The translations under genes and the position numbers were made by a program. Below the pieces are notes generated by a model. It made no database searches. It saw nothing but the letters and a program-made list of their open reading frames with translations, and was not told where the DNA came from. DNA of 64,000 nt from contig NZ_VYQF01000001.1 of assembly GCF_008710285.1 (NCBI RefSeq), positions 868,001 to 932,000 of the forward strand, read 5' to 3'. Source of the stretch: Ginsengibacter hankyongi (lineage in GTDB: Bacteria > Bacteroidota > Bacteroidia > Chitinophagales > Chitinophagaceae). Positions 294-13,283 of the stretch are shown one piece after another; position 1 is the first letter of the stretch; the number at the start of each line of letters is the position of its first letter.

Positions 294-392
294 TTATTTA
301 TTCCGGTATTGATGCCAGAAAAAACCAATGGCAAATCCTACAAGGATGTAAATAAGTATTTTAATAATCCTTTCTTTAGTGTTGCTATTCAT
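294..392 (-). CDS. 32-aa single-span membrane microprotein, overlaps the upstream family gene
   Basis: The ATG at 392 lies inside the end of the preceding gene, and the two frames overlap by 8 nt (shared AATGAATAG). This arrangement suggests translational coupling. The product has a polar start (MNSNTKERIIK), one hydrophobic span (about residues 11-25) and a basic tail containing FWH. A homologous 31-aa frame at 12425-12520 overlaps the end of another member of the same family in exactly the same way, and the two share TKxR, LIYIL, GFA and FWH. Two independent conserved copies make a real gene likely. Function is unknown; it could be a small partner or assembly factor for the MEVHHH proteins. 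Confidence 0.6.
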   Translation of the reverse strand: MNSNTKERIIKILIYILVGFAIGFFWHQYRNK

Positions 393-1155
393 TTTTTAAA
401 TTATATACTTTTTTTAATTTATCAATTAAGGTGGTTGCATGCTGCAATAAGGTATCGGCATCCTTAAGCTGATTGGGCAAAAATCTTGAACGGATCATCT
501 CAAGATATTCGTTAAACAATGTTTTATCATAAGTTAGTAATGGTGGATTGGTCTTCATAAAAGAATCAATTCTCTCCTGGTTAAATGAAGTTTTGTTTGC
601 CAGATAAATATTGTTAGCTGCATCATTGTATTTGAATTCAAAAATTTTTGCCCTTGCTTTTCTCACTTCCGTATAAATTCCAATATCTATTTCTTCTAAC
701 TTCCCCCATCTGCGGCAAAGTTGATCATACTGTGCTACGTTCCGGTTAAGTGAGGCGTCAGTAAAATAACGCAGCGCACCTGAACTTTCCATTTGATGAA
801 TAGTGGCATCGTGTGATACAAAAGAGCCATGAGCCCCGCCAAATAAACCATACCAGTACAATTTGCCCGAAGGAATTTGCCTTGGATCCTTGGCAGAAAT
901 CAGTTGTATGAGTGTATCAATTTTACCAACTCCATATCCGGTATAATTGATGTAGTATTTTAAATCTGCAGTGTCACTTTTAAGATCGCTGATCATTTCT
1001 TGTGCATATTCCTTTGCATGCTTGTGCTCCGTTACGTATTCCCGCAGGCTTTCCGCCAAAAATCCAAGTGTTACGGCAAGAAATATCATTACAAATTCCA
1101 AAAAATATTCTTTGAAGCCTTTTTTTTCTACGTGTGGATGATGATGTACTTCCAT
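385..1155 (-). CDS. MEVHHH-family membrane-anchored protein, paralog 1
   Basis: 256 aa, function unknown. The head is MEVHHHPHVEKKGFKEYF (type I), followed by one hydrophobic span at about residues 18-36 (FVMIFLAVTLGFLAES). The positive charges before the span suggest that the His cluster is cytoplasmic and the remaining 215 residues are outside the inner membrane. After the span come SDLKSDTADL (shared with the paralogs), a central motif IHQMESSGALRYF that corresponds to the family pattern KSSGxLRLI, and a C-terminal KVYNLKNE. There are no Cys-rich or obvious catalytic motifs. The gene ends in an 8-nt overlap with a 32-aa microprotein. It is separated from the other five full paralogs by three kinase genes. 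The layout recalls DUF6090-like proteins (one N-terminal span, then LKxDTxxL), but I cannot assign a named family. Confidence 0.85.
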   Translation of the reverse strand: MEVHHHPHVEKKGFKEYFLEFVMIFLAVTLGFLAESLREYVTEHKHAKEYAQEMISDLKSDTADLKYYINYTGYGVGKIDTLIQLISAKDPRQIPSGKLYWYGLFGGAHGSFVSHDATIHQMESSGALRYFTDASLNRNVAQYDQLCRRWGKLEEIDIGIYTEVRKARAKIFEFKYNDAANNIYLANKTSFNQERIDSFMKTNPPLLTYDKTLFNEYLEMIRSRFLPNQLKDADTLLQHATTLIDKLKKVYNLKNE

Positions 1156-1243
1156 ATTTATTTAAGATGATGTTTGTTTTTATAGAAGGCAATAAGATTA
1201 ATGGCTTTGATTTCTAAACCACTTATTAATAATCGCTGCGCTT

Positions 1244-1402
1244 TTATAGCACGTAAAGACAATTGCAGTTGGTAAACCATTTATTCAACATAGCCCGGTC
1301 ATCCGAAAACAATAAGGGACCGCTTAAAGTGCTGGTGCCAACATCTACAGCAGTACCCCGTGAAACCTCCTGTGCCGGAGCATTTACCCTGAAATCGGCG
1401 AT
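1244..1402 (-). other. Open frame continuing in phase after the kinase stop codon
   Basis: Directly after the TGA of the TPR kinase, the same frame stays open for 52 codons to a TAA at 1244. It encodes a protein-like stretch with DFRVNAPAQEVSRGTAVDVG and then LLFSDDRAMLNKWF. The composition resembles the end of secreted Bacteroidota proteins of the repeat-rich type (GTAVDVG), so it may be the tail of a gene cut off when the kinase core arrived. The remaining gap to 1155 shows nothing else. It is not a gene on its own because it lacks a start. Confidence 0.3.
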
Positions 1403-3361
1403 TCAGACAACTGGTAATTGAATAATAAATTTACTTCCTTCTCCTTCTTTACTCTCCACCTTTATTTCCCCACCATGCGCTTTTACAATATCATAACTCA
1501 AACTCAATCCCAACCCCGTTCCTGATCCTGTCGGTTTTGTGGTGAAGAAAGGCTGAAAGATTTTTTCTTTGATTGACTCAGGAATACCGCCGCCATTATC
1601 TCTAACGGTTATGAGCACACTATTTCCGGATTTATTTGTGGTTACTGATACAGATGGTTCATGCTCTTTGCCTTGGGCTTCTTGCCTTTTGTTTACCGCA
1701 TAAAAAGCATTATTAAAAAGATTCAACAACACGCGACCGATATCCTGCGGAACGATATTTATTTTTCCGATCGAAGGATCAAAATCGGTCTTTATTTCTG
1801 CATTAAAGCCATTGTCTTTTGACCTTAATCCATGATAACTTAACCTTAAATATTCATCACATAATGCGTTTATGTCTGTGGGTTCTTTTTTCCCGGAAGA
1901 TTCTCTTGAATGTTGCAACATACTTTTTACAATCGCATCGGCTCGTTTGCCATGATGAATTATTTTCTGCTCATTACTTTTTATGTCATCAGCAATTTCA
2001 TTTGCCAATTGCAAATTGCCTGTTGCCAATTCATTTTTTAATTCATCGATCATTTCACTGTTCACTTCCGAAAAATTATTGACGAAGTTTAGCGGGTTCT
2101 GAATTTCATGGGCAATGCCCGCGGTGAGTTCACCCAGGCTTGCCATTTTTTCTGATTGTATGAGTTGCGCCTGGGTGGATTTTAGATGATTAAGCGTTTG
2201 TTCAATTACTTCATTTTTATTTTGGAGCAGTTTCTTGGCTTCCTTTTCTTTCCGGTTATTCCGATAAAGAAAGAAAGCAATCAGCAGTAAAATTGCCAGA
2301 CCTGCAATTAATGCATACTGTTTTAATTGGTTTTGGTAGGCAACCCTGGCAGCTTCAATTTCTTTTTGGCGTTGTTCCTCATGCGCAACCAATGTTTGCA
2401 CTGCTTCTATATTTCCCGTCCCAAATATGCTGTCTTTATATGCATTTGCAATTTTAAGATATTGTAAAGATGTTTTAGTGTCTTTGGGTTCGTATAAATC
2501 AGCCAACAAAGTTGCTGCTTCAAGTATTGTTTTCTTTTGATTAATCAATTTCGATTCTTCGAAACCTTTTTGAGCATAATAAATAGCAGAATCCGATTGA
2601 TTGGCAGTCTTATAAAGTGCTGCAATTTTATTATAAGCATAAGCTAAAGCCCTGCTTTCATTATTTTTAAGCGCAATCTGAAGACTTTTTTGATAGTAAT
2701 TCAATGCCTCACCGGGGTTGCCTGATTTTATTTTTATATCTCCAATGGTTTGATAAACCAATGGTTCTTCACGATGATATTTTCCAAAAGTTTCAATTGC
2801 TTTCTTTTCATAAAATTTGGCTGAATCCAACTGGTTTAATCCTTCAAATGCAACTCCCATATCGTAATATGCATAGGCCAATCCCTCATCATTCATCCCT
2901 TTTTCTTCAATCAGTATATATTTACGTAAATAACTTATTGCTTTAGTATAATCTTTAAGTGTAATATAATCTTCACCAATACCATCCAGGGCGGCTCCGT
3001 TTAACGTTTCAAGGTGAAACTGTTGTGCAAGTTGCAATGACCTGAAGCCCTGTTCCATTGATTTGGGCAAGTTGCCCCGCTGTCCAGTTACAATGCTCAT
3101 AAAACCCAGAACATTAATCTGCCCACGTACATATTTTATTTTCTCAGCAGATTCCAATGCCTGTTGTCCGTAGATCATTGAAGAATCTGTATTTCCCAAA
3201 CGATAAAGCAGGCATAATGCTATCTGGGCATTGATACGGCTTGTATCATCTTTTGCAGTAGCTAATTGATGTTGCAAGCTATCAATTGCTTCTTTTGTTT
3301 GGGTAAAACCAACACTACATACAAACGCAAGAAGAATGGTTAATGTGAAAGTCTTTATCAT
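1403..3361 (-). CDS. TPR-sensor histidine kinase
   Basis: 652 aa. The order is a signal peptide (1-20, ending GFTQ), tetratricopeptide repeats (about 25-320, with typical AYYDMGVAFEGLNQLDSA spacing), a membrane span (about 349-366), a short coiled coil, then the kinase core. The phospho-acceptor box is GELTAGIAHEIQNPLNF with His419. The N box is VLLNLFNNAFYAV, the G1 box DNGGGIP, and the G2 box GTGLGLSLSYD. There is no receiver domain, and no intact response regulator lies in the window. The ATG overlaps the stop of the upstream kinase by 4 nt (ATGA), so the two are co-translated. The core is nearly identical over 457 bp to that of the chimera at 7819-9051. The last codons GTT GTC TGA lie in the same GTCTGAATC motif that bounds the GxxExxY cassette. 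Confidence 0.92.
   Translation of the reverse strand: MIKTFTLTILLAFVCSVGFTQTKEAIDSLQHQLATAKDDTSRINAQIALCLLYRLGNTDSSMIYGQQALESAEKIKYVRGQINVLGFMSIVTGQRGNLPKSMEQGFRSLQLAQQFHLETLNGAALDGIGEDYITLKDYTKAISYLRKYILIEEKGMNDEGLAYAYYDMGVAFEGLNQLDSAKFYEKKAIETFGKYHREEPLVYQTIGDIKIKSGNPGEALNYYQKSLQIALKNNESRALAYAYNKIAALYKTANQSDSAIYYAQKGFEESKLINQKKTILEAATLLADLYEPKDTKTSLQYLKIANAYKDSIFGTGNIEAVQTLVAHEEQRQKEIEAARVAYQNQLKQYALIAGLAILLLIAFFLYRNNRKEKEAKKLLQNKNEVIEQTLNHLKSTQAQLIQSEKMASLGELTAGIAHEIQNPLNFVNNFSEVNSEMIDELKNELATGNLQLANEIADDIKSNEQKIIHHGKRADAIVKSMLQHSRESSGKKEPTDINALCDEYLRLSYHGLRSKDNGFNAEIKTDFDPSIGKINIVPQDIGRVLLNLFNNAFYAVNKRQEAQGKEHEPSVSVTTNKSGNSVLITVRDNGGGIPESIKEKIFQPFFTTKPTGSGTGLGLSLSYDIVKAHGGEIKVESKEGEGSKFIIQLPVV
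1681..2137. repeat. Kinase-core direct repeat, copy A
   Basis: 457 bp inside the TPR kinase that align without gaps (offset 6416) to 8097-8553 in the chimeric kinase. By eye there are about 13 differences, roughly 97 percent identity. The 120 bp on the 3-prime-coding side (1561-1680) match far less well, so the high identity has a sharp edge. This is the pattern of gene conversion or recent segment copying between paralogous kinases. Confidence 0.75.
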
Positions 3362-6300
3362 TGATCAGTATAAATAGGTATTTGAATAATAAATTCACTT
3401 CCTTCTCCCTCTTTACTTTCCACTTTTATTTCCCCACCATGCGCTTTAATGATATCGTAACTTAAACTTAATCCCAGTCCCGTTCCTTCTCCCGTTGGCT
3501 TAGTGGTAAAGAAAGGCTGGAATATTTTATCTACTACTTTTTGTGGGATACCATTGCCGTTATCCTTAACCGTTAGTATTACATTACCACCCATCTTTTT
3601 TGAACTAACTGAAACGACCGATTCATAACTATTTAGTTGTTGTTTGGCTTTTTCATTTACTGCATAAAAAGAATTATTGTATAAGTTTAATAATACTCTG
3701 CCGATTTCTTGTGGAATAATATTGATTTTGCCAATAGACTTATCAAAATCAGTTTTCATTTCTGCATTGAAAGATTTATCCTTTGCTCTCAGCCCATGAT
3801 AACTTAATCGTAAATATTCATCCGCTAATGCATTAATATCCGTTGGTTCTTTTACACCTGTGCTTGACCGTGAGTGTTGCAACATTCCTTTTACAATAGA
3901 ATCTGCTCTTTTACCATGAAAGCTTATTTTTTCCTGGTTATTTTTAATATCGTTGGCAATTTCTTCTAAAGGAAGTTTTTGTTCCGGAGAAAGGTTGGTT
4001 CTATTTAGTTCATCTTTTAGTTCGTCGGTTAATTCCATATTCACTTCCGAAAAATTATTCACGAAATTTAATGGGTTTTGAATTTCATGAGCAATGCCGG
4101 CCGTCAATTCTCCAAGGCTTGCCATTTTTTCTGATTGTATTAGTTGTGCCTGAGTTGATTTTAGGCTGCGGTATGCGTCGGCATTGTCCAGTGCCAAAGC
4201 GGTGTAAGTAGCAAGGCTTCGAAGAATGTTAAGATGGTATTCTTTATAGGCATTTTTGCTGAAGCTTTGCGCCGTAATTACGCCAATAGCTTTGCTTTTA
4301 TAAACCAATGGCAAATAAATCACCGATGCTGTATTATCCCCGGCGGCTGATTCCGGAATGTCGGAAATATAAGCAGGGTGTTCTTTTTCAAAATCATTCA
4401 TAATAATTTCTTTTTGATTATTAAAACACCAGCTTGCAGGCCTTTTGGTATCATTGAGGTGATAACTGTAGGGAAGCAAAGTTTCTCCTTTTTCTTTGGT
4501 AGCCGGAAACTCCAGTTGCTGTTTTTCCCTGTTTACGATGCCAATGCCAAATACCGATGCATCCATCAACTTATTTACATGCGTGTAAACCGTATTGATA
4601 ATGTTCCCGATGGAAAGGGATGATGTAATTTCTTTACCCATCTCGCTGATCAGTTCGGTATTTTTTCGCTGTTCATTCTCGGCTTCTGCTTTTAAGTTTG
4701 CTTCCCTGAATGCCGCACGTTGCCTTTCACGCGTAATTACACGGCTGCGTTGCCAGCGAAAAATTAAAAATGCCAGCAGGCCGAAGAGGATTACATACAA
4801 ACTATACGCCCACCAGGTTCTGTACCACGGAGGTAAAATCTCAAATGAATAGGTTCCTGTGCTGCTTTCTATTCCGGCAACGTTTAATGCAGTCACTTTA
4901 AAGGTATATTTACCCGGAGGCAGGTTGGAATATTCTTTTCTTGTTTCTGTTGAATAAGCTGACCAGCCCTTATCAAAGCCTTCTAAAAATGTTTTGAATT
5001 GATTTACGTTTTTTCCTTCGTAACTGGTGGCAGCATACCTAAAGGCAACAGAGTTGTTATTATAAGTTATCTTAGAACTAACCGGTTTATCCAGCATTCC
5101 GCCAAAGTAGAGAGTTGAGTCTTCACCAACATCCACTTTCCGGATAAGGGCTGCATAGTTGGTTTTACCTGAATTCTTCTTTGTAAAATCATATTTAATG
5201 ATCTGATCATTTGCAGTGAACCAGCTAATACCGTTTTTTTCTGCATATACTTTACTAATTGATTCCTCAGCAAACCTGTTGAACGGGGAAGATAGCCATT
5301 TCCAGGATCCATCCGGCTTAAGCGTCCCCATGGTTAATTTATCTTCTCCTCCCATCCATATTCGTCCAAGGTTATCTTGTTGAAAACTTATTTTTACAAT
5401 ATTAGCTTTTATGTTAATGAATTCAGCAATAATTTTATTAGAAGTATCAGCATAAAATATTTTTTTGTTTTCATTGAATAGATAAATGCTGTCAGCTGTG
5501 GTAAAATAATTTACCCCATTAATGCTCGTTACATACGTAATGCCATCCTGAAGTCCGTTCAATTTATTAAAGTGTTCAATAACCGGCTTTTGAAGTAATA
5601 TATTTCCATCATCACCTTTTTGAAAAGTAACCTCGAAAAGGCCGGATGATTGGGTACCCATCCACACCCTTCCATCTTTGTATTCTATGATAGAAGTTGG
5701 TTCGTCAGGGTTATCTAATATGTGACTTTCATCCTTCCACGTGCTGCCGGTTTTTACTACAGACCACAAGCCGCTTGAGGTCCCTGCAAAAACCCTGTCG
5801 GGGTTTACCCGTGATTGTTTTAATGCATAAACAAAATATTCATTTCCAATGGTCTTTCTGATCGGTGATAACTGATCTTTTTCAACCTGAAATAACCCAT
5901 CGTTTGTTCCAACGAGTAGTTGATTTCCAACCTCCGCAAAAGTCCATGACTGATTGTTACTGTTCCTTAAAAGGTGAAATTTTGATGTTTTAGGATTAAG
6001 CGCATAAAGACCGTTATTTGTACATGTATAGATAATTCCATTGTGACGGATAATATCAATTGGAACTCCCGAAATATCATTCCTGGAATCGAAGTAACTT
6101 ACCGGAGAGGAATAGTCTATCCTGGAGATGCCGTTTGCTGTGGCCAGCCAAATAGAACCGGAGCGGTCCTGGAAGGAAAAATCGACAGAATTATTTTCAA
6201 TGCCGTTTTCTAAATTGTACCTACCGACTTCCCTGCCTGTGCTGTCAATTACTACTGCTCCGCTGTTTTGTGTGCCCAGTAATATATTTCCGTCGGAAAG

Positions 6301-7083
6301 CACGGTGCCGGGGAAATAAATCAGGTTATCTTTAATAAACTGATCGGCTTCCGTTTTAAAGGGAATAAAATTGTTGCCGTCATACTTAAATAATCCCATG
6401 GTGCGGGTACCAATCAAAATGGTTCCTTTTTCACCGGGAAAGGGAAGCATTACATAAATCCTTTCATTGGCAAATTTTTGACCTCCTTTTACAACAACCA
6501 GCGAATCGTTCTTCAAAACTTCCAGCCCTTTTCCCCATTCCCGCACATAAATGGTTCCCCTCACGTTAAACATTACGTGAAAGGTATTTTGTGCCTGAAT
6601 AATATGGAATTCCTTTTTTTTTATGTTCCAGATAAAAATGTAATTAAATGTTTCAAAATATACTTTGCCGCCGCTGACATAGGTTGCCCACACATCCGTA
6701 AAGTGTCTTTTATCCTTTGGTAGAAAATTTGTGAGCGAATGAAATTTTAATTGCCCGGAAGAATCTGGCAAGAAGTATCCCAGGTCACCCACTGATCCTA
6801 CATATATTTTTCCGTCATCTCCATTTGCCAAAGAGCGGATAGTGGATTTGTTCGGCAACTGGTAAAGCCGCCACGCATTGCCGTCAAACTCCAGCAGCCC
6901 GACATTATTTCCAAAATACATAATGCCACGCTTGTCCTGTGTGATTGCCCAGTTTTGCATATCTGCGTGGTATTCTTTTGGCAGGTAATTAATAATCTCC
7001 TGGGAGCCGGCTTCGGCATAGTGCTGTGCGGCTGCAATAGCGGTAATAGCCACGTAAGTTAACAGCAGTATCAATTTTCTCAT
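3358..7083 (-). CDS. Two-component-propeller hybrid-type sensor histidine kinase with GAF domain
   Basis: About 1241 aa. The ATG at 7083 is chosen over an in-frame GTG at 7116 because it begins the signal peptide (MRKLILLLTYVAITAIAAAQ) and has AAAGGG just upstream. Domain order: periplasmic Reg_prop beta-propeller repeats (about 30-650, with motifs such as DRSGSIWLATANGISRID), a Y_Y_Y domain (YSNLPPGKYTFKVTALN), one membrane span (about 760), a GAF domain (about 830-970, ASVIYLPLVYKSKAIGVITA), then the kinase core with the acceptor His near residue 999 in GIAHEIQNPL and the G boxes DNGNGIP and GTGLGLSLSYD. Unlike many propeller hybrids it has no receiver or AraC-type domain, so it must signal to a separate regulator. 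The stop overlaps the start of the next kinase by 4 nt. Confidence 0.93.
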   Translation of the reverse strand: MRKLILLLTYVAITAIAAAQHYAEAGSQEIINYLPKEYHADMQNWAITQDKRGIMYFGNNVGLLEFDGNAWRLYQLPNKSTIRSLANGDDGKIYVGSVGDLGYFLPDSSGQLKFHSLTNFLPKDKRHFTDVWATYVSGGKVYFETFNYIFIWNIKKKEFHIIQAQNTFHVMFNVRGTIYVREWGKGLEVLKNDSLVVVKGGQKFANERIYVMLPFPGEKGTILIGTRTMGLFKYDGNNFIPFKTEADQFIKDNLIYFPGTVLSDGNILLGTQNSGAVVIDSTGREVGRYNLENGIENNSVDFSFQDRSGSIWLATANGISRIDYSSPVSYFDSRNDISGVPIDIIRHNGIIYTCTNNGLYALNPKTSKFHLLRNSNNQSWTFAEVGNQLLVGTNDGLFQVEKDQLSPIRKTIGNEYFVYALKQSRVNPDRVFAGTSSGLWSVVKTGSTWKDESHILDNPDEPTSIIEYKDGRVWMGTQSSGLFEVTFQKGDDGNILLQKPVIEHFNKLNGLQDGITYVTSINGVNYFTTADSIYLFNENKKIFYADTSNKIIAEFINIKANIVKISFQQDNLGRIWMGGEDKLTMGTLKPDGSWKWLSSPFNRFAEESISKVYAEKNGISWFTANDQIIKYDFTKKNSGKTNYAALIRKVDVGEDSTLYFGGMLDKPVSSKITYNNNSVAFRYAATSYEGKNVNQFKTFLEGFDKGWSAYSTETRKEYSNLPPGKYTFKVTALNVAGIESSTGTYSFEILPPWYRTWWAYSLYVILFGLLAFLIFRWQRSRVITRERQRAAFREANLKAEAENEQRKNTELISEMGKEITSSLSIGNIINTVYTHVNKLMDASVFGIGIVNREKQQLEFPATKEKGETLLPYSYHLNDTKRPASWCFNNQKEIIMNDFEKEHPAYISDIPESAAGDNTASVIYLPLVYKSKAIGVITAQSFSKNAYKEYHLNILRSLATYTALALDNADAYRSLKSTQAQLIQSEKMASLGELTAGIAHEIQNPLNFVNNFSEVNMELTDELKDELNRTNLSPEQKLPLEEIANDIKNNQEKISFHGKRADSIVKGMLQHSRSSTGVKEPTDINALADEYLRLSYHGLRAKDKSFNAEMKTDFDKSIGKINIIPQEIGRVLLNLYNNSFYAVNEKAKQQLNSYESVVSVSSKKMGGNVILTVKDNGNGIPQKVVDKIFQPFFTTKPTGEGTGLGLSLSYDIIKAHGGEIKVESKEGEGSEFIIQIPIYTDQ

Positions 7084-7208
7084 AAAAACCCTTTGTTTTT
7101 TTAGTTTAGTAATCACATTGGTATTGTTGATTATGAAATGCCCAACATCTCAGGAATTTAATGTATTAGTAATTCATTCCATACAATGGTGCTAATACTC
7201 ATGATCGG

Positions 7209-7304
7209 TTATTCAGAAGGCATTTTAATAATATATTCCTTTCCTTCTCCTTCTTTACTTTCTGGTTTTATTTCTCCGCCATGCGCCTTTACAATATCAT
7301 AACT
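7209..7304 (-). pseudogene. C-terminal fossil of a fourth histidine kinase
   Basis: The minus strand encodes SYDIVKAHGGEIK, then ESKEGEGKEYIIKMPSE and a TAA. This is the last 31 residues of the same kinase core found three more times in this region, beginning just after the G2 box. It has no start or upstream part. The break lies exactly at 7305/7306, where the inverted repeat of the GxxExxY cassette begins. Because the chimeric kinase on the other side of the cassette has its own complete C-terminus, this fossil belongs to a different kinase copy or to a recombination product. Confidence 0.8.
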
Positions 7305-7354
7305 CGTCTGAATCACGGATTTAAATGGATTCATGGATTTCACAGATTTCATTT

Positions 7355-7732
7355 TTAAAGGACGAGTCTTTTAAAGGTTAAGCTTTTACTGCCAAAATTG
7401 ATTAGCAATCCTACTTCGAGTTTATAGGCTTTTAAGTAATTTAATACTTGCGCCATATGTACATCTTCCAGTTCAACAATTGCTTTCAACTCCACTAAAA
7501 CTTTTACTGCCACAACAAAATCGGCTCTTCTTATTCCTATCGGCTCTGTAAGTTCTTTATAAAATATCTCCTGTTCAATTTCCCTGGCAAAAGTTAACCC
7601 GGCTTGTGACAACTCCCAAGCTAATGCCCTTTGGTATATTATTTCCTGAAACCCATTTCCCAGGAACTTATGTACTTCAAAGGAAGCGCCGATAATTTTT
7701 TCCGTTATGTCTTTATATTTTAATTCTGCCAT
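7355..7732 (-). CDS. GxxExxY protein (PD-(D/E)XK-like superfamily)
   Basis: 125 aa, the usual length for this family. It shows the name-giving GNGFQEIIYQRAL (G..E..Y) near residue 25, then RRADFVVAVKVLVELKAI, which gives the D...ExK pattern of PD-(D/E)XK nucleases (Asp of RADF, ELK), and LLINFGSKSLTFKRLV at the end. The biological role of the family is not settled. It is the only gene inside the inverted-repeat cassette at 7306-7825 and breaks the run of kinase and MEVHHH genes. The ATG at 7732 directly follows a short AT-rich stretch after the repeats. Confidence 0.88.
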   Translation of the reverse strand: MAELKYKDITEKIIGASFEVHKFLGNGFQEIIYQRALAWELSQAGLTFAREIEQEIFYKELTEPIGIRRADFVVAVKVLVELKAIVELEDVHMAQVLNYLKAYKLEVGLLINFGSKSLTFKRLVL

Positions 7733-7759
7733 CGTATCAATCTGTGCAATCTTTTAATC

Positions 7760-7825
7760 TTTATAATCCGTGATTCAGACATTTATAATCCGTGATTCAG
7801 ACATTTATAATCCGTGATTCAGACA
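7760..7825. repeat. Three perfect 22-bp tandem repeats
   Basis: The unit TTTATAATCCGTGATTCAGA plus CA occurs at 7760-7781, 7782-7803 and 7804-7825 without mismatch. The last copy overlaps the end of the chimeric kinase, whose TGA stop is read from it on the minus strand. No spacers separate the units, so this is not a CRISPR array. Confidence 0.95.
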
Positions 7826-9051
7826 ACTGGTAATTGAATAATAAATTTACTTCCTTCCTCCTCTTTACTTTCCGCTTTTATCTCCCCACCATGTGCTTTT
7901 ACAATATCATAGCTCAAGCTTAAACCCAATCCTGTTCCAATCCCTGTCGGTTTTGTAGTAAAAAATGGTTGAAATATTTTATCTACAATATTTTGCGGAA
8001 TGCCGTTTCCATTATCACTAACGGTAACCAATACACTATTTCCGGATTTCTTTGTAGTTGCTGAAACAGAGGGTTCATACTCTTTGCCTTTTGCCTCTTG
8101 CCTTTTGTTTACAGCATAAAAAGCATTATTAAAAAGATTCAACAACACGCGACCGATATCCTGCGGAACGATATTTATTTTTCCGATCGAAGGATCAAAA
8201 CCGGTCTTTATTTCTGCATTAAAGCCCTTGTCTTTTGATCTTAATCCATGATAACTTAACCTTAAATATTCATCACATAATGCGTTTATGTCTGTGGGTT
8301 CTTTTTTCCCGGAAGATTCTCTTGAATGCTGCAGCATACTTTTTACAATCGCATCGGCTCGTTTGCCATGATGATTTATTTTCTGCTCATTACTTTTTAT
8401 GTCATCAGCTATTTCATTTGCCAATTGCAAATTGCCTGTTGCCAATTCATTTTTTAATTCATCGATCATTTCGCTGTTCACTTCCGAAAAATTATTCACG
8501 AAGTTTAGGGGGTTCTGAATTTCATGGGCAATTCCGGCGGTGAGTTCACCCAGCGAAGCCATTTTTTCGGATTGAATGAGTTGTTTTTGCGTAGCTTTTA
8601 AATTGTCCAGTGTGTGGCGTATCTCTGCTGTTTGCCTGTTTACTTCTTCCTGCAATATTTGTTGCTGGTTTTCTGCCTGTATTCTTTTTTCTTCTGAAAG
8701 CTGTACTACCTTATCCGCATTTATCCTCACTTCCTGTATCATTTCTTTAAATCGCATAGATACATATACTAATAAGGAGATTGGGAATGAGAGAATGAAG
8801 CAAGTAAAAAGAAAAAAGGTAAAATATTGGCTAGTGATGCCTGTTACGTAAGCATAAATAATGCCTGCAAAAAAGGTGAAAAGAGAAAAAAATAGTCCCA
8901 CGACGATGGCCCATTGTGCTCCCTGCAGTTTTTTCCAGGAACTGATTATATAATACAGGCAAATGGTTACCGCCAGGAATATCATTAAGAACTCCAGGAA
9001 ATATTCCTTGAATCCTTTCTTTTCTACGTGTGGGTGATGATGTACTTCCAT
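7819..9051 (-). CDS. Chimeric histidine kinase with MEVHHH-family head
   Basis: 410 aa. Residues 1-29 (MEVHHHPHVEKKGFKEYFLE and FLMIFLAVT) are the head and half of the membrane span of the MEVHHH family. From residue 30 the sequence changes to ICLYYIISSWKKLQGAQWA and two more spans (about 47-65 and 78-97), then a long coiled coil (101-160), and a kinase core with His176 in GIAHEIQNPL and G boxes DNGNGIP and GTGLGLSLSYD. The first 29 residues were therefore joined to a kinase whose own start is missing. The frame is intact, so a functional membrane kinase carrying the His cluster is possible. The stop lies within the cassette repeat. It lies downstream of paralog 2 on the same strand. Confidence 0.88.
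   Translation of the reverse strand: MEVHHHPHVEKKGFKEYFLEFLMIFLAVTICLYYIISSWKKLQGAQWAIVVGLFFSLFTFFAGIIYAYVTGITSQYFTFFLFTCFILSFPISLLVYVSMRFKEMIQEVRINADKVVQLSEEKRIQAENQQQILQEEVNRQTAEIRHTLDNLKATQKQLIQSEKMASLGELTAGIAHEIQNPLNFVNNFSEVNSEMIDELKNELATGNLQLANEIADDIKSNEQKINHHGKRADAIVKSMLQHSRESSGKKEPTDINALCDEYLRLSYHGLRSKDKGFNAEIKTGFDPSIGKINIVPQDIGRVLLNLFNNAFYAVNKRQEAKGKEYEPSVSATTKKSGNSVLVTVSDNGNGIPQNIVDKIFQPFFTTKPTGIGTGLGLSLSYDIVKAHGGEIKAESKEEEGSKFIIQLPVV
8097..8553. repeat. Kinase-core direct repeat, copy B
   Basis: Partner of 1681-2137: same length, no gaps, about 13 differences by eye. Outside this tract the two kinases differ much more, both at the C-terminal end and before the H box. Confidence 0.75.
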
Positions 9052-9122
9052 ATTTTTTATTTCTGATGTTGTGATGCCTTATTGATTGATTTTAATTTCT
9101 TCATTCACCATTCACTTGTTTT

Positions 9123-9207
9123 TCATTCTTCGCTTTTGTCAAGGTCTGCAATTACATTCTTTGCGTTTGCCAATCGTATCGCTGTGTCGGTGATGATGTA
9201 CTTCCAT
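9123..9207 (-). pseudogene. Deletion scar of an MEVHHH-family gene
   Basis: The ATG at 9207 begins MEVHHH with the same codons as the paralogs (ATGGAAGTACATCATCAC), but the seventh residue on is unrelated and the frame ends after 22 codons. One frame over, the DNA reads TDTAIRLANAKNVIADLDKS followed by EE and a TGA at 9123. This is like the C-terminal end of a family member (compare ADTLLQHATTLIDKLKK in paralog 1). So the head and tail of one gene were joined by deletion of the middle. The head match is direct; the identity of the tail is inference. Confidence 0.6.
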
Positions 9208-9218
9208 ATTTTTACTGT

Positions 9219-9980
9219 TTATTGTAAATGATACTCTTTATTCAATAGGCTAATCAATTTTCTGGCCTTGTCAAATTGTGAGGTTTCGAGACTTAAGTGG
9301 CTATCCAGCATCATCATAAGTGACTTTACTTTATTCATGTATTCTTTTAAAACAATACTATCCGAACTGATTAATTTCTGTGAAAGTGAATCATTCAAAA
9401 AAATATCGGCACCTCCTCGAAAACCGAATCTTTTGATCAGCGAATAATCAAATATTGTTTGAGACATCTTATTGAGGTCGGTCATCCAGTTCTCAACGTC
9501 AACAGCCTCATGTTGAATATCCCCGTCATAAAAATTGTAATAAAAAGTAATGCTGTCTTTACATGCTTTATTTTCAATCAGGTTAAAGGCTCCGGTGCTT
9601 TTTATTTGTGAAATGGTTCTTTCATTTTGCTGAAAAAGAATCAAACCGAAACTGTACCTGAAATTGAGATAGTAAAGCCGGTGTATATCGTAGGTATTTT
9701 TATTGGCTGCAAGGTTCAATAAAATACAAAGGCTGTCAAGTTTGTCAAGCTGTAATTGTGCCCTGGGAATTAAGTGGCTTAAGGATGAAGTATCTGTTAA
9801 CAGGTCTTCTTTTAAAGTAATGATATACTCCTTTTCTTTCTTGACGTTTACTAAATGCTCACGAATATTCTCTGCAAAAAAGCCAAGCGTTACAGCGAGA
9901 AAGATCATTAAGAATTCCAGAAAATATTCTTTGAAATTTTTCTTCTTATGTTGGAGGTCGGGGTGATGATGTACTTCCAT
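9219..9980 (-). CDS. MEVHHH-family membrane-anchored protein, paralog 2
   Basis: 253 aa, function unknown. This is a type II head (MEVHHHPDLQHKKKNFKEYF), two residues longer than type I, then one span (about 20-38, LMIFLAVTLGFFAEN). After the span come EKEYIITLKEDLLTDTSSL, a central ISQIKSTGAFNLI (family pattern KSSGxLRLI, here weaker) and the C-terminal LLNKEYHLQ. The distal domain is predicted mostly helical from its composition and has no recognisable enzyme motif. The gene starts 32 bp downstream of paralog 3, so it is probably in the same transcript, and it is followed by the deletion scar. Confidence 0.85.
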   Translation of the reverse strand: MEVHHHPDLQHKKKNFKEYFLEFLMIFLAVTLGFFAENIREHLVNVKKEKEYIITLKEDLLTDTSSLSHLIPRAQLQLDKLDSLCILLNLAANKNTYDIHRLYYLNFRYSFGLILFQQNERTISQIKSTGAFNLIENKACKDSITFYYNFYDGDIQHEAVDVENWMTDLNKMSQTIFDYSLIKRFGFRGGADIFLNDSLSQKLISSDSIVLKEYMNKVKSLMMMLDSHLSLETSQFDKARKLISLLNKEYHLQ

Positions 9981-10012
9981 TATTTAATTGTTTTGATTTT
10001 CATTTTCTCATT

Positions 10013-10756
10013 TCATTGAAGATTGTATTTTTTCTGAATCATTTTAATTAGTCGAATCGTAACATCTTTTTCCTGCACTGCATAGCTTAAATTAATTAAA
10101 ACTTCCGCACTGTAATAATGCAGTAACCCTACAAATTCATTGATAATGGCTGCATCGTTTGTAATCAATTGCGGATTCCCTTGTGGTGGATTTACCCGGT
10201 AAGGAGATTTTTGCAGCATATTTTGGAAAACCGCTCCATCAAAAACCTTCACTGCTGAATGAATGTATGCTATCATTTCCTGTATTTGTATTTCAGATTG
10301 TTCTTTAAAATGAGTTTGTGAGGCATAGTACTTTGAAACTGAATCGGAAAGCGCACCATCCCTGATCAGCCGCAATGAACCGGAATTTTTCATTTCTTCG
10401 TACGTTCTTTCATTTAGCTCAAACCTTCTAAGTTTAGTTGTAATAGTTCTTCCGAAATAATACATCGTTCTACCATACTTAGCTCTATCTCGACTTTGCA
10501 TCAAATGTATTAATGAATCCATTTGGGTGAGCGCTACGTTAGCTTGCATGGAAAAAGAATTAATTTTTGCTGTGTCTGTTTTTAAATCTTCAAGCATTGA
10601 CTTCATAAATTCTTTTTCCCGATTGTGATCAGCCACACTTTCACGCATTTGCTCCGCAAAAAATCCCATTGTTACCGCAAGAAATATCATTAAGAATTCT
10701 AAAAAATATTCTTTGAAATTTTTCTTCTCTACGTGTGGATGATGATGTACTTCCAT
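10013..10756 (-). CDS. MEVHHH-family membrane-anchored protein, paralog 3
   Basis: 247 aa, function unknown. Type I head (MEVHHHPHVEKKNFKEYF), one span (about 18-35, LMIFLAVTMGFFAEQ), then REKEFMKSMLEDLKTDT, the central motif YEEMKNSGSLRLI, and the C-terminal MIQKKYNLQ. It matches paralog 4 in the first 20 residues except for nothing visible, while the distal halves are strongly diverged. This contrast between a nearly fixed head and a variable body is seen throughout the array. It lies 43 bp after paralog 4 and 32 bp before paralog 2. Confidence 0.85.
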   Translation of the reverse strand: MEVHHHPHVEKKNFKEYFLEFLMIFLAVTMGFFAEQMRESVADHNREKEFMKSMLEDLKTDTAKINSFSMQANVALTQMDSLIHLMQSRDRAKYGRTMYYFGRTITTKLRRFELNERTYEEMKNSGSLRLIRDGALSDSVSKYYASQTHFKEQSEIQIQEMIAYIHSAVKVFDGAVFQNMLQKSPYRVNPPQGNPQLITNDAAIINEFVGLLHYYSAEVLINLSYAVQEKDVTIRLIKMIQKKYNLQ

Positions 10757-10799
10757 TTCTTTTACTTTTTAATTAAATAATGAATGCTGATACAACTAT

Positions 10800-11543
10800 T
10801 CATTGTTTTTTTTGCAAATCGAACTCATCAGTTACATAATCCATCAATCTTTCTGCAGTTTCTTTTGTTTTGCTATAATTTGTAATAAATATCTTATCGT
10901 ATGCTTCAATATTCTCCAGGCTTACACTCAACTGTGTCATATCGTTCTGGGTAAGATTTCTTACTTGCGCATCTATAACATGGTTATTAAAGCCGCTTGT
11001 AAGAGAGGAGCGCATGTTAGCAGGAGTAAAATGCGCAATAATAAATGTTTGTGTATATTGCCTTTCATTTTGCTGCTGATAGTTTTTCATGTACCGCAAC
11101 CCCGATAAATCAGATTCATAATCGGTGATGTAAGACATGATTTTTGAATTGGATAATTGTTTTAGATGTAATTCGTTTTTTATTTCCGTTATCGCGCCGG
11201 TTGAAGCTCTGAAAATGGTAACGTTAAAGCAGTCAAGTATTAACTCCTGCATTTTTTTTAAATCTGCTTTTCCTATAGGTTGTTGCAAAAGATAAAACAA
11301 ACTATCTTCCTTTCGTGTAAAAATAGTTTCGAGCGAAATATTTTTATTAAGCGCTGCTGTATCTTTTTTAAGATCATTTACCAGTTGTTCGCAAAGCAGT
11401 TGAACATGCTCCTTATCAGAAATATATTCTCTTATATTTTCAGCAAAAAAGCCAAGTGTTACGGCAAGGAATATCATTACAAATTCCAAAAAGTATTCTT
11501 TGAAATTTTTCTTCTCTACGTGTGGATGATGATGTACTTCCAT
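10800..11543 (-). CDS. MEVHHH-family membrane-anchored protein, paralog 4 (most diverged body)
   Basis: 247 aa, function unknown. Type I head with one span (about 18-35, VMIFLAVTLGFFAEN), then LLCEQLVNDLKKDTAALNKN. The central motif is ITEIKNELHLKQL, the copy that departs most from KSSGxLRLI, because SSG is replaced by NEL. The C-terminus is YVTDEFDLQKKQ rather than KYxLQ. The intact head and open frame argue that it is still a working gene. The ATG is preceded by about 100 bp after paralog 5, the longest gap in the run of five. Confidence 0.85.
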   Translation of the reverse strand: MEVHHHPHVEKKNFKEYFLEFVMIFLAVTLGFFAENIREYISDKEHVQLLCEQLVNDLKKDTAALNKNISLETIFTRKEDSLFYLLQQPIGKADLKKMQELILDCFNVTIFRASTGAITEIKNELHLKQLSNSKIMSYITDYESDLSGLRYMKNYQQQNERQYTQTFIIAHFTPANMRSSLTSGFNNHVIDAQVRNLTQNDMTQLSVSLENIEAYDKIFITNYSKTKETAERLMDYVTDEFDLQKKQ

Positions 11544-11642
11544 GTTTCAGTTTGTAGTTTTTGGTTTGTTGTTCAGAAATATTTTCACTTTCTGTTGTCT
11601 GTAGACTGTCGTCTGCGGACGGCTTTATGTTTTTTTCTTCAC

Positions 11643-12398
11643 TTATTCTAAATGATATTGTTTTTTCAACAAGCTGATTAAATCGATTGCCTCTTTGGAA
11701 GCAGACAATGCCCGCTCGTTCATTAGTTTTAAAATTCCATAATAATATTGATAGCGCATCATTACAGCATTAATTGCCATGCGATCGGTAGAAATAAGCG
11801 CCGGGTTGCTTTCTTGCGTAAAGCCTGAAGTATTTTCATTTTCAATTTTCTTCACTATAGAAAATAAAACTGCTGCATCAAAAATTCTGTCGTTAATTGA
11901 GATAAGCTCATTCATCCTTTGCTTCTGAAAGTCTGACCAATAATCAAACCTTTTTATCCATTGATAATAAGAGCCAATACTATCTGCGATAAACTGCTTT
12001 TTAATAAGTCTGAGCCCGCCGCTGCTTTTCATTTGCTCAAAGGTTTTTGCGGTTGGAGAAATTACACTGCTACCCATTGTAAGTTGCCGGGCCATGTAAT
12101 AAAGTCGTTTATTATTATTGTCTTTATTTTGCGTGAGGTAAGTAATGATAGAATCAATTATACGGCAATGTGCCAGGTTAAAATTAATTGCTTCATTATA
12201 CATTACGGTATCACTTTGCAGATCGTTCACCATTGATTGAACATATTCGTGAAGCTGATTTTTGTCTTTAATACTTTCTCTTATATTTTCTGCAAAAAAA
12301 CCAAGCGTTACAGCAAGAAATATCATTAAGAATTCCAAGAAATATTCTTTGAAATTTTTCTTCTTATGATGAAGATCGGGATGATGATGTACTTCCAT
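11643..12398 (-). CDS. MEVHHH-family membrane-anchored protein, paralog 5
   Basis: 251 aa, function unknown. Type II head (MEVHHHPDLHHKKKNFKEYF) with five His in the first 11 residues, one span (about 20-37), then LHEYVQSMVNDLQSDT. The central motif FEQMKSSGGLRLI is the best copy of the family pattern, and the C-terminus is LLKKQYHLE. It begins 26 bp after the 31-aa microprotein and is probably co-transcribed with paralog 6. The similarity of its head to paralogs 2 and 6 at both DNA and protein level separates a type II group from the type I group (paralogs 1, 3, 4 and the chimera). Confidence 0.86.
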   Translation of the reverse strand: MEVHHHPDLHHKKKNFKEYFLEFLMIFLAVTLGFFAENIRESIKDKNQLHEYVQSMVNDLQSDTVMYNEAINFNLAHCRIIDSIITYLTQNKDNNNKRLYYMARQLTMGSSVISPTAKTFEQMKSSGGLRLIKKQFIADSIGSYYQWIKRFDYWSDFQKQRMNELISINDRIFDAAVLFSIVKKIENENTSGFTQESNPALISTDRMAINAVMMRYQYYYGILKLMNERALSASKEAIDLISLLKKQYHLE

Positions 12399-12424
12399 TT
12401 ATTATATTATTTTTTGTGACGTAT

Positions 12425-12520
12425 TTATTGTTTCATACGATGCCAGAAATAAGCAACCGCAAAACCAATCAAAATATAGATCAGCATTTTAAATAAGCGT
12501 TGCTTTGTTTTTTCATTCAT
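12425..12520 (-). CDS. 31-aa single-span membrane microprotein, overlaps paralog 6
   Basis: The ATG at 12520 overlaps the end of paralog 6 by 8 nt (shared AATGAATGA), the same geometry as at 385-392. The product has a polar start MNEKTKQRLFK, one hydrophobic span (about 11-25) with LIYILIGFAVAYFW, and a short basic tail HRMKQ. It is clearly homologous to the 32-aa product at 294-392. It lies 26 bp before paralog 5. Function is unknown. Repeated overlap with family members suggests coupled production with them. Confidence 0.6.
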   Translation of the reverse strand: MNEKTKQRLFKMLIYILIGFAVAYFWHRMKQ

Positions 12521-13283
12521 TTGAAAAATGGTATTTATTGTTGATTGACTTAATAAGTTGTGTAGCCAATGTATCAGCATGGTTTAGAACATCGGAATAG
12601 CCATAGTTTCTCCCTTTTAGATTTACGAAGCTGTTGGCAAGTTTGTTTAAAGTAACAGAGTCTTTTACAAGCAATGGCATATCATACAAATCACTGTTTT
12701 CAATTGGAATGTTATTTCGAATGTTATCGTCAATTTTTTTATTGAATTCCTTTTCGTCGCTTATTGCATCTTCCTGGGCATAAATATTATCGGCTGCACC
12801 GTTCATAGACCCGGTTCTTGCTTCTAAAATATTGTTTTGAACGTAGGCCGCATAACTCACTATTTTTCCGGCGATGTTTTTATCATCTATCAATCTTAAA
12901 TTGCCTGAACTTTTTAATTGTTCAATAGTCGTTAACGATGGCTGGTATGTATATGACTCTGCATTTACGGGTGTATTCCATCTGCCCTGCAATACATAAT
13001 TAAATCGTTTTGCTTCTTTTGCATTTATATAAAGAGAATCAAGAATAGGCCGCAGGTAATTTAATTTTTGCACTAATTGGCTATACTGAGCTGTATCATA
13101 CTGTAGCTCAGAAACCATTGAAGAAAGATATTCCCGCTCCTTTGATCTGTCGCCCAAATGTTCTCTTATACTTTCTGCAAAAAAACCAAGCGTTACCGCA
13201 AGAAATATCATTAAGAATTCTAAAAAATATTCTTTGAAATTTTTCTTTTTGTGATGAAGATCGGGATGATGATGTACTTCCAT
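12513..13283 (-). CDS. MEVHHH-family membrane-anchored protein, paralog 6 (first gene of the array)
   Basis: 256 aa, function unknown. Type II head (MEVHHHPDLHHKKKNFKEYF), one span (about 20-37, LMIFLAVTLGFFAES), EREYLSSMVSELQYDTAQY, central motif IEQLKSSGNLRLI, and C-terminal NNKYHFSNE. Its last codons overlap the 31-aa microprotein. Paralogs 1 and 6 are the only two ending in xNE and the only two with a microprotein, so they probably keep the ancestral two-gene unit. A promoter for the array should lie in 13284-13500. Confidence 0.86.
   Translation of the reverse strand: MEVHHHPDLHHKKKNFKEYFLEFLMIFLAVTLGFFAESIREHLGDRSKEREYLSSMVSELQYDTAQYSQLVQKLNYLRPILDSLYINAKEAKRFNYVLQGRWNTPVNAESYTYQPSLTTIEQLKSSGNLRLIDDKNIAGKIVSYAAYVQNNILEARTGSMNGAADNIYAQEDAISDEKEFNKKIDDNIRNNIPIENSDLYDMPLLVKDSVTLNKLANSFVNLKGRNYGYSDVLNHADTLATQLIKSINNKYHFSNE

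Follow-up and report, generated by a model that had tools for sequence, protein, structure and literature searches.

A 64,000-nucleotide (nt) stretch of the genome of Ginsengibacter hankyongi (contig NZ_VYQF01000001.1, positions 868,001 to 932,000; hereafter the window, with G000 standing for its 5.5-Mb assembly) contains, at positions 385-13283, an array of genes whose products begin with nearly the same MEVHHHP head and continue into strongly diverged tails. The best explanation for this arrangement, which we consider probable, is that the head serves both as a membrane anchor and as the joint at which a tail plus its spacer is recombined between species. The head, about 30 codons counted from the ATG, would be kept as an anchor by purifying selection; since it opens every array gene, it would double as a stretch of homology for recombination. 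The exchanged cassette would consist of a tail and its trailing spacer, entering at a resident head and ending at the next one, so that tails are traded between species and heads stay local. The agent would probably be ordinary homologous recombination. Some arrays would carry a surplus, often truncated head at their end, and a kinase chimera in the window would be one such end joined to a neighbouring kinase.

Head and tail of these genes have different histories. Nine cross-genome gene pairs had tails at least 0.90 identical in DNA; in eight of them the head was less similar than the tail, with p < 0.01 in six. The identities in these six pairs were 76-90% for the heads and 91.5-98.6% for the tails, and the head length type differed in four of them. 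For instance, tail and head identities were 0.965 and 0.76 in a pair from G000 and G007, and 0.961 and 0.78 as well as 0.955 and 0.79 in two further pairs. The tail of g2 was about 95.5% identical to those of genes in G018 and G007, with head identities of 79% and 86%, respectively, and the tail of g6 was 94.5% identical to its relative in G001 and 85.8% to that in G003. In the six pairs of lowest synonymous divergence (dS) in the tail (0.04-0.10), head dS was 0.5-1.7 in five and saturated in one, a combination that selection on the protein could not produce.

The core genes tested were far more diverged. A gene that we take to be kdsA was 70-81% identical to that of G000 in all eight genomes compared. 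Moreover, dS between G000 and G001 ranged from 0.93 to 1.37 for the genes of a seven-gene operon, presumably of the bat type as judged from its gene order. At the search sensitivity used, this operon had no match in G007 or G018, and in G003 it gave a 32-nt match alone. As a control, the first 90 nt of these seven genes were 0.829 identical and the remainder 0.831. Because the core genes are far more diverged than the tails and the heads are unlike, the tails appear to have moved between species without their heads. The sequence-only reading had regarded the genes as interchangeable, and the same tail did occur with different heads across genomes.

The boundaries of the shared blocks were located most clearly in two gene pairs of G007 and G018. 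The block took in the spacer, which had the same length in both genomes (17 and 17 nt in one pair, 11 and 11 nt in the other), and faded within the next head, after which the tails were unrelated. Similarly, the block that g2 shares with its relatives in G018 and G007 comprises the tail, a spacer of 11 nt that differs at two bases, and 17 nt from the start of the next head. Downstream of these 17 nt the window sequence diverges, and G018 and G007 carry a full head there. The head remnant that trails g2, which the sequence-only reading had not recorded, is followed after 137 nt by the complete head of the chimera. In addition, changepoints were estimated for eight MEVHHH pairs and fell at nt 66-166 in seven, one of them with a very wide interval, and at nt 292 in the eighth.

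The 3' ends of the arrays were also distinctive. A total of 101 distinct runs was available, from which 19 lacking 400 nt of 3' flank were left out for the 3' ends and 17 with a short 5' flank or a first head that was not found were left out for the 5' ends. An extra head without a detectable tail was present at 11 of the 82 3' ends and at 1 of the 84 5' ends (p = 0.002). Ten of the 11 extra heads begin 6-68 nt past the last tail, which is the spacing of a normal next gene. Together with two truncated tails, they make 13 truncated last genes, of which seven break off no later than nt 77 (p = 1.1e-4, assuming a gene of about 756 nt). Counting all 11 as cut inside the head (p = 4e-9) would be too generous, because four span nearly the whole head model, and one of these four, in locus L123, extends to about residue 70. 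The lone gene that G000 carries on contig C29 also has an extra terminal head. Some terminal heads precede unrelated genes that, by eye, are permease- or lipoprotein-like. Lone MEVHHH heads before unrelated genes were seen in L075 (8771, 10464 and 10743), L058 (10159), L120 (628), L041 (12122) and L067 (8773), and the one in L058 is fused in frame to an apparent lipoprotein start.

The kinase part of the chimera comprises a C-terminal membrane part followed by HisKA/HATPase. Six other genomes of the genus carry relatives of it in frames of 726-749 amino acids (aa), to which it aligns from residue 334-352 onward, and in G007, G018 and G015 a full-length relative starts within about 70 nt of the end of the last tail. 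Because these relatives are full-length and, in the three genomes named, start just behind the last tail, the simplest reading of the chimera is the fusion of an array's terminal head with a kinase missing more than 300 N-terminal residues. This explains it better than a designed receptor-kinase would.

The array proteins had no supported match to Pfam, NCBIfam or PADLOC models, the single PADLOC match having an E-value of 0.014. A Pfam scan of 96 aligned members gave 13 families, each in one member and none an immunity family (best E-value 4e-4). AlphaFold2 models of g5, which is all helical (predicted local distance difference test score, pLDDT, 93.4), and g4 (pLDDT 89.9) had their main helices in the same order at 28% sequence identity in the alignment; in both, a long helix leaves the membrane span and is followed by a helical bundle. 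Foldseek searches of PDB and BFVD gave no match at E ≤ 0.001, and a sequence search of PDB gave none up to an E-value of 1.

DUF6090 (PF19578) proteins are similar in layout, and a relation to them was tested. The Pfam model of DUF6090 had no match in G000, and neither the window proteins nor the 96 aligned members matched it. Alignment of the two tail profiles by hhalign, however, gave a probability of 98.1% (E 8.8e-14 over 114 columns), and a profile of the MEVHHH proteins recovered some DUF6090 loci in other Bacteroidota. Reciprocally, a profile made of 14 DUF6090 proteins alone matched six places in G000, namely g2-g6 and the C29 gene but not g1, with g3 the best (E 6.2e-15) and all matches confined to the region behind the head. 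As judged from profiles and predicted structures, the distal halves are one all-helical family remotely related to DUF6090. The earlier view of a variable and probably periplasmic domain on a fixed membrane head stood, whereas that of unrelated receptors did not.

Similar to the MEVHHH proteins, DUF6090 proteins combine a homologous helical tail with a constant membrane head, diverge in the tail, occur in large arrays and exhibit a cross-species mismatch of head and tail. They differ in the head itself, which is MIKFFRKIRQ..YAIGE..NNWNE in DUF6090 proteins and MEVHHHP..KEYFLEF.MIFLAVT here. In 16 cross-genome DUF6090 pairs with tail identities of at least 0.90, drawn from G075, G064, G137 and G091, the head was less similar in 10; six of these reached p < 0.01 and four p < 1e-6. 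The strongest four pairs represent three tails, with head identities of 0.79-0.85 and tail identities of 0.94-0.99, and changepoints were at nt 96-123 in all three DUF6090 pairs tested. Further heads were found on the same tails. Among 56 longer matches, a head was recognised by pattern in 22 and by eye in six more, and the remainder were of the DUF6090 type, had other heads or were fragments. At least two more head types (MKKKKTPWWGN..DFF and M.EE..KHTKKI-like) were observed on this tail superfamily in L168, L171, L186, L212, L213 and L215. A literature search on DUF6090 found no paper and no role for DUF6090-type proteins, and searches on array, cassette and constant/variable themes found nothing apparent on the MEVHHH family. 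The ratio of nonsynonymous to synonymous divergence (omega) of the tails had a median of 0.13 in 27 pairs, which argues against diversifying selection on them.

The head was as uniform as first described. Six genes and one kinase chimera with a near-identical MEVHHHP head are present on one strand, and across these seven proteins 26 of the 27 invariant columns are within residues 1-34, D210 being the sole exception. The near-identity extends over residues 1 to 28-30 and takes in one hydrophobic span. The proposed two head types also exist: the HVEKK head has 28 codons to the end of IFLAV and the DLHHKKK/DLQHKKK head has 30. Full-length identity to g1 was 31-36% for the other five array proteins. 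The two motifs that had been reported behind the head were less regular. KSSGxLRLI is found in g5 and g6, but the corresponding residues are KNSGSLRLI in g3, ESSGALRYF in g1, KSTGAFNLI in g2 and KNELHLKQL in g4; the C-terminal motif is in general KxYxL-like but DEFDL in g4 and NKYHF in g6. Conservation of the heads by recent duplication alone found no support in single-gene loci (27 genes of 25 genomes, some of which have further copies elsewhere), in which the mean identity was 75% for the head (residues 1-34), a figure inflated by the fetching of loci L039-L114 largely with head peptide patterns, and 25% for the tail. The overall layout would be a short cytoplasmic head rich in His and Lys, a single inner-membrane span and a helical outer domain of about 200 residues.

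At the DNA level, similarity among the array genes starts abruptly at the ATG, and the upstream sequences do not align. The MEVHHHP DNA pattern had eight matches in G000, seven in the window and one on C29, where it adjoins another kinase, and the reversed pattern had none. The first 20 nt of the eight matches contain a single variable base. Among the MEVHHHP-starting genes of a set of 251, GAA was used at a frequency of 0.98 in the head vs 0.77 in the tails and GTA at 0.77 vs 0.33; the His codons of the same heads were not enriched over the tails. The uniformity of those first 20 nt could point to a site-specific element in the DNA around the start codon, but such an element is disfavoured by this codon bias, which is modest across the family, and by the unenriched His codons. 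Homologous recombination is preferred over a dedicated site because of the modest bias. In L048, L050, L055, L093 and L114, long low-complexity N-terminal extensions precede the head and resemble translated dispersed DNA repeats.

Matches to the family were present in 18 of 39 relatives, in 28 of 98 genomes of the family Chitinophagaceae and in 34 of 198 genomes of the phylum, the last count including remote DUF6090-type matches. Loci were assigned to genomes by hand, and duplicate loci of one genome were left out of the counts. The distinct runs included 42 single genes, and the longest had 12 genes. G256 had at least 27 matches, most of them at C1:1075-1127k. In this region (G256:C1:1072000-1130000; L227-L229) the MEVH-type genes are interleaved with genes for a beta-lactamase-family hydrolase, penicillin amidase, amidohydrolases, M19, S58 and M20 peptidases, an amino-acid permease and a DcuC carrier, a gene content with an apparent flavour of peptide or D-amino-acid salvage. 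A region of about 53 kb in G079 (C2:77321-130286; L231-L233) is a DUF6090 array holding most of the 36 DUF6090 matches of that genome.

The linkage to histidine kinases that had been noted in the window was also found elsewhere: 20 of 55 genomes have a related kinase no more than 2 kb away. The loci contain 40 such kinases, 19 of them within 500 bp of an array gene. Non-kinase neighbours numbered 146, of which 21 that were more than 400 nt away, too short, too long or contained X were left out. Among the 125 distinct neighbours kept, amino-acid permeases (7), M19 dipeptidases (5), amidohydrolases, related amidases and peptidases recur, which suggests a link with peptide or amino-acid uptake. 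Tentatively, each tail may serve as a distinct recognition domain in the periplasm, with the linked histidine kinases reading its state. In transcription order, the window locus consists of g6, g5, g4, g3, g2, the chimera, a small open reading frame (ORF), two histidine kinases and g1 (Table 1). ORFs related to the small one were present in loci of four genomes, G000 included, and we take it to resemble GxxExxY/PDDEXK-like small proteins.

Table 1. Features of the MEVHHHP locus, in window coordinates and transcription order.
Feature	Position	Strand	Description
g6	12513..13283	minus	first in transcription order; head 13283-13189, DLHHKKK type
g5	11643..12398	minus	array gene; head 12398-12304
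g4	10800..11543	minus	array gene; head 11543-11456
g3	10013..10756	minus	array gene; head 10756-10668
g2	9219..9980	minus	last intact array gene; head 9980-9886
19-nt head remnant	9189..9207	minus	11 nt behind the g2 stop; read from 9207 to 9189
Kinase chimera	7819..9051	minus	head 9051-8963 fused in frame to kinase C-terminal part
Small ORF, 125 aa	7355-7732	minus	between kinase and chimera
Two-component regulator-propeller / Y_Y_Y / GAF histidine kinase	3358..7116	minus	domain matches
TPR histidine kinase	1403..3361	minus	domain matches
g1	385..1155	minus	separate copy past the kinases; head 1155-1068, HVEKK type

Three known systems bear comparison with these arrays. In integrons, cassettes are parted by a repeated element and a repeat is left at the end. 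The MEVHHH arrays are similar in having a repeated element between cassettes and a terminal repeat, but here each gene's own coding start serves as the repeat. Orphan immunity arrays of the rAID type are reportedly gained by transfer. They too line up diverse genes and belong to the same phylum, in Bacteroidales; they differ in being recombinase-associated and in having recognised immunity domains (PMC12247911), neither of which was seen here among the 25 commonest Pfam families of the neighbours, in the PADLOC search or in the Pfam scan of the 96 members. For tpsA/tpsC of Neisseria, it has been proposed that recombination with cassettes gathers protective genes (PMC3848433). As described there, recombination exchanges the 3' portion of a gene for a cassette, which may be of external origin and brings small neighbouring genes along, similar to the cassettes of this study; the proteins are unrelated and secreted, and one gene with shorter related cassettes takes the place of the full genes, each with its own head, that are found here (PMC3848433).

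Several results weigh against the head as the joint for tail exchange. Among the nine closest pairs, CAIPDP/CAIPPO showed no swap, and the p-values of G000/G001 and CANBSW/G298 were 0.39 and 0.015, respectively; no difference between head and tail was detected at p < 0.01 in 10 of the 16 DUF6090 pairs. In 20 MEVHHH pairs with tail identities of 0.80-0.90, the head was less similar in 13, with p < 0.01 in just two, as would be expected if old swaps had blurred but equally if swaps were occasional. Of the 82 runs, 71 had no detectable terminal head. No recombinase was identified, as neither integrase nor transposase was among the 25 commonest of the 149 Pfam families in the 125 distinct non-kinase neighbours. 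The linked kinase of G007 and G018 was patchy, with identities of 0.68-0.90 in 300-nt bins and 0.79 overall, and exchange in these regions is therefore not confined to the heads. Along this kinase (L115 3035-5278 and L121 1531-3777), the first 600 nt had identities of 0.90 and 0.89, the following 600 nt 0.68-0.69 and the remainder 0.68-0.85, as if segments had been exchanged there too. Moreover, most partner genomes are metagenome-assembled genomes (MAGs), in which repeated heads could yield false joins, and the function proposed for the tails has gene neighbourhood as its one source.

Intragenomic gene conversion alone could homogenise the heads among paralogues, with each gene otherwise inherited or transferred as a unit; the mismatches would then be conversion tracts. 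This explanation agrees with the identity of codons 2-9 at same-residue positions, 0.743 within and 0.588 between genomes with codon usage uncontrolled, and with the arrays of G075 and G064, where matching genes have the same order and single heads differ inside otherwise matching genes. We nevertheless regard it as unlikely, since G000, G007 and G018 share tail and spacer with unrelated sequence upstream, since the next tail is also unrelated in the G007/G018 pairs, and since the G000 heads are of two lengths rather than uniform; nor does conversion predict extra terminal heads. That the genes are ordinary tandem duplicates of envelope proteins, with similar tails due to recent whole-gene transfer and head mismatches due to metagenome assembly, is highly improbable. 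The partner MAGs do have many contigs. However, the pattern recurs with DUF6090 heads in the separate genomes G064, G075 and G137, which are 99-100% complete, G000 itself carries two swapped genes as well as terminal heads or remnants, and head divergence in the six significant pairs, at 10-24%, exceeds what simple overlap errors could cause. A third explanation concerns function: the tails might act in the periplasm to block toxins, bacteriocins or phages or to give immunity to them, and the array would then be a stock of resistances gathered from neighbours. Runs of up to 12 genes, horizontal trade, patchy presence at each level sampled and the precedents of the tpsA/tpsC cassettes (PMC3848433) and rAID orphan immunity arrays (PMC12247911) are in its favour. 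It is nonetheless somewhat doubtful, as defence and immunity models gave no supported match, the tail omega indicates purifying and not diversifying selection, and the recurrent neighbours are kinases, amino-acid permeases and peptidases, although no search was aimed at toxins.

Some Bacteroidota genomes, such as G079, encode dozens of DUF6090-type proteins, and exchange between head and tail would provide a concrete evolutionary mechanism for the superfamily to which they belong. It is conceivable, though we propose it with reserve, that the DUF6090-type and MEVHHH-type proteins form two branches of a single system that spans the Bacteroidota. In it, the start of each coding sequence would be the joint, and periplasmic recognition domains would be traded, each as a tail with its spacer, under a constant anchor read by local kinases, giving a modular and horizontally renewed repertoire for envelope sensing or protection. 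Exchange of this kind suggests a repertoire that is traded and selected, not a set of idle duplicates, and the function of the tails can be tested through the linked kinases and in competition assays. By trading tails at the anchor, a bacterium could renew its set of envelope proteins.

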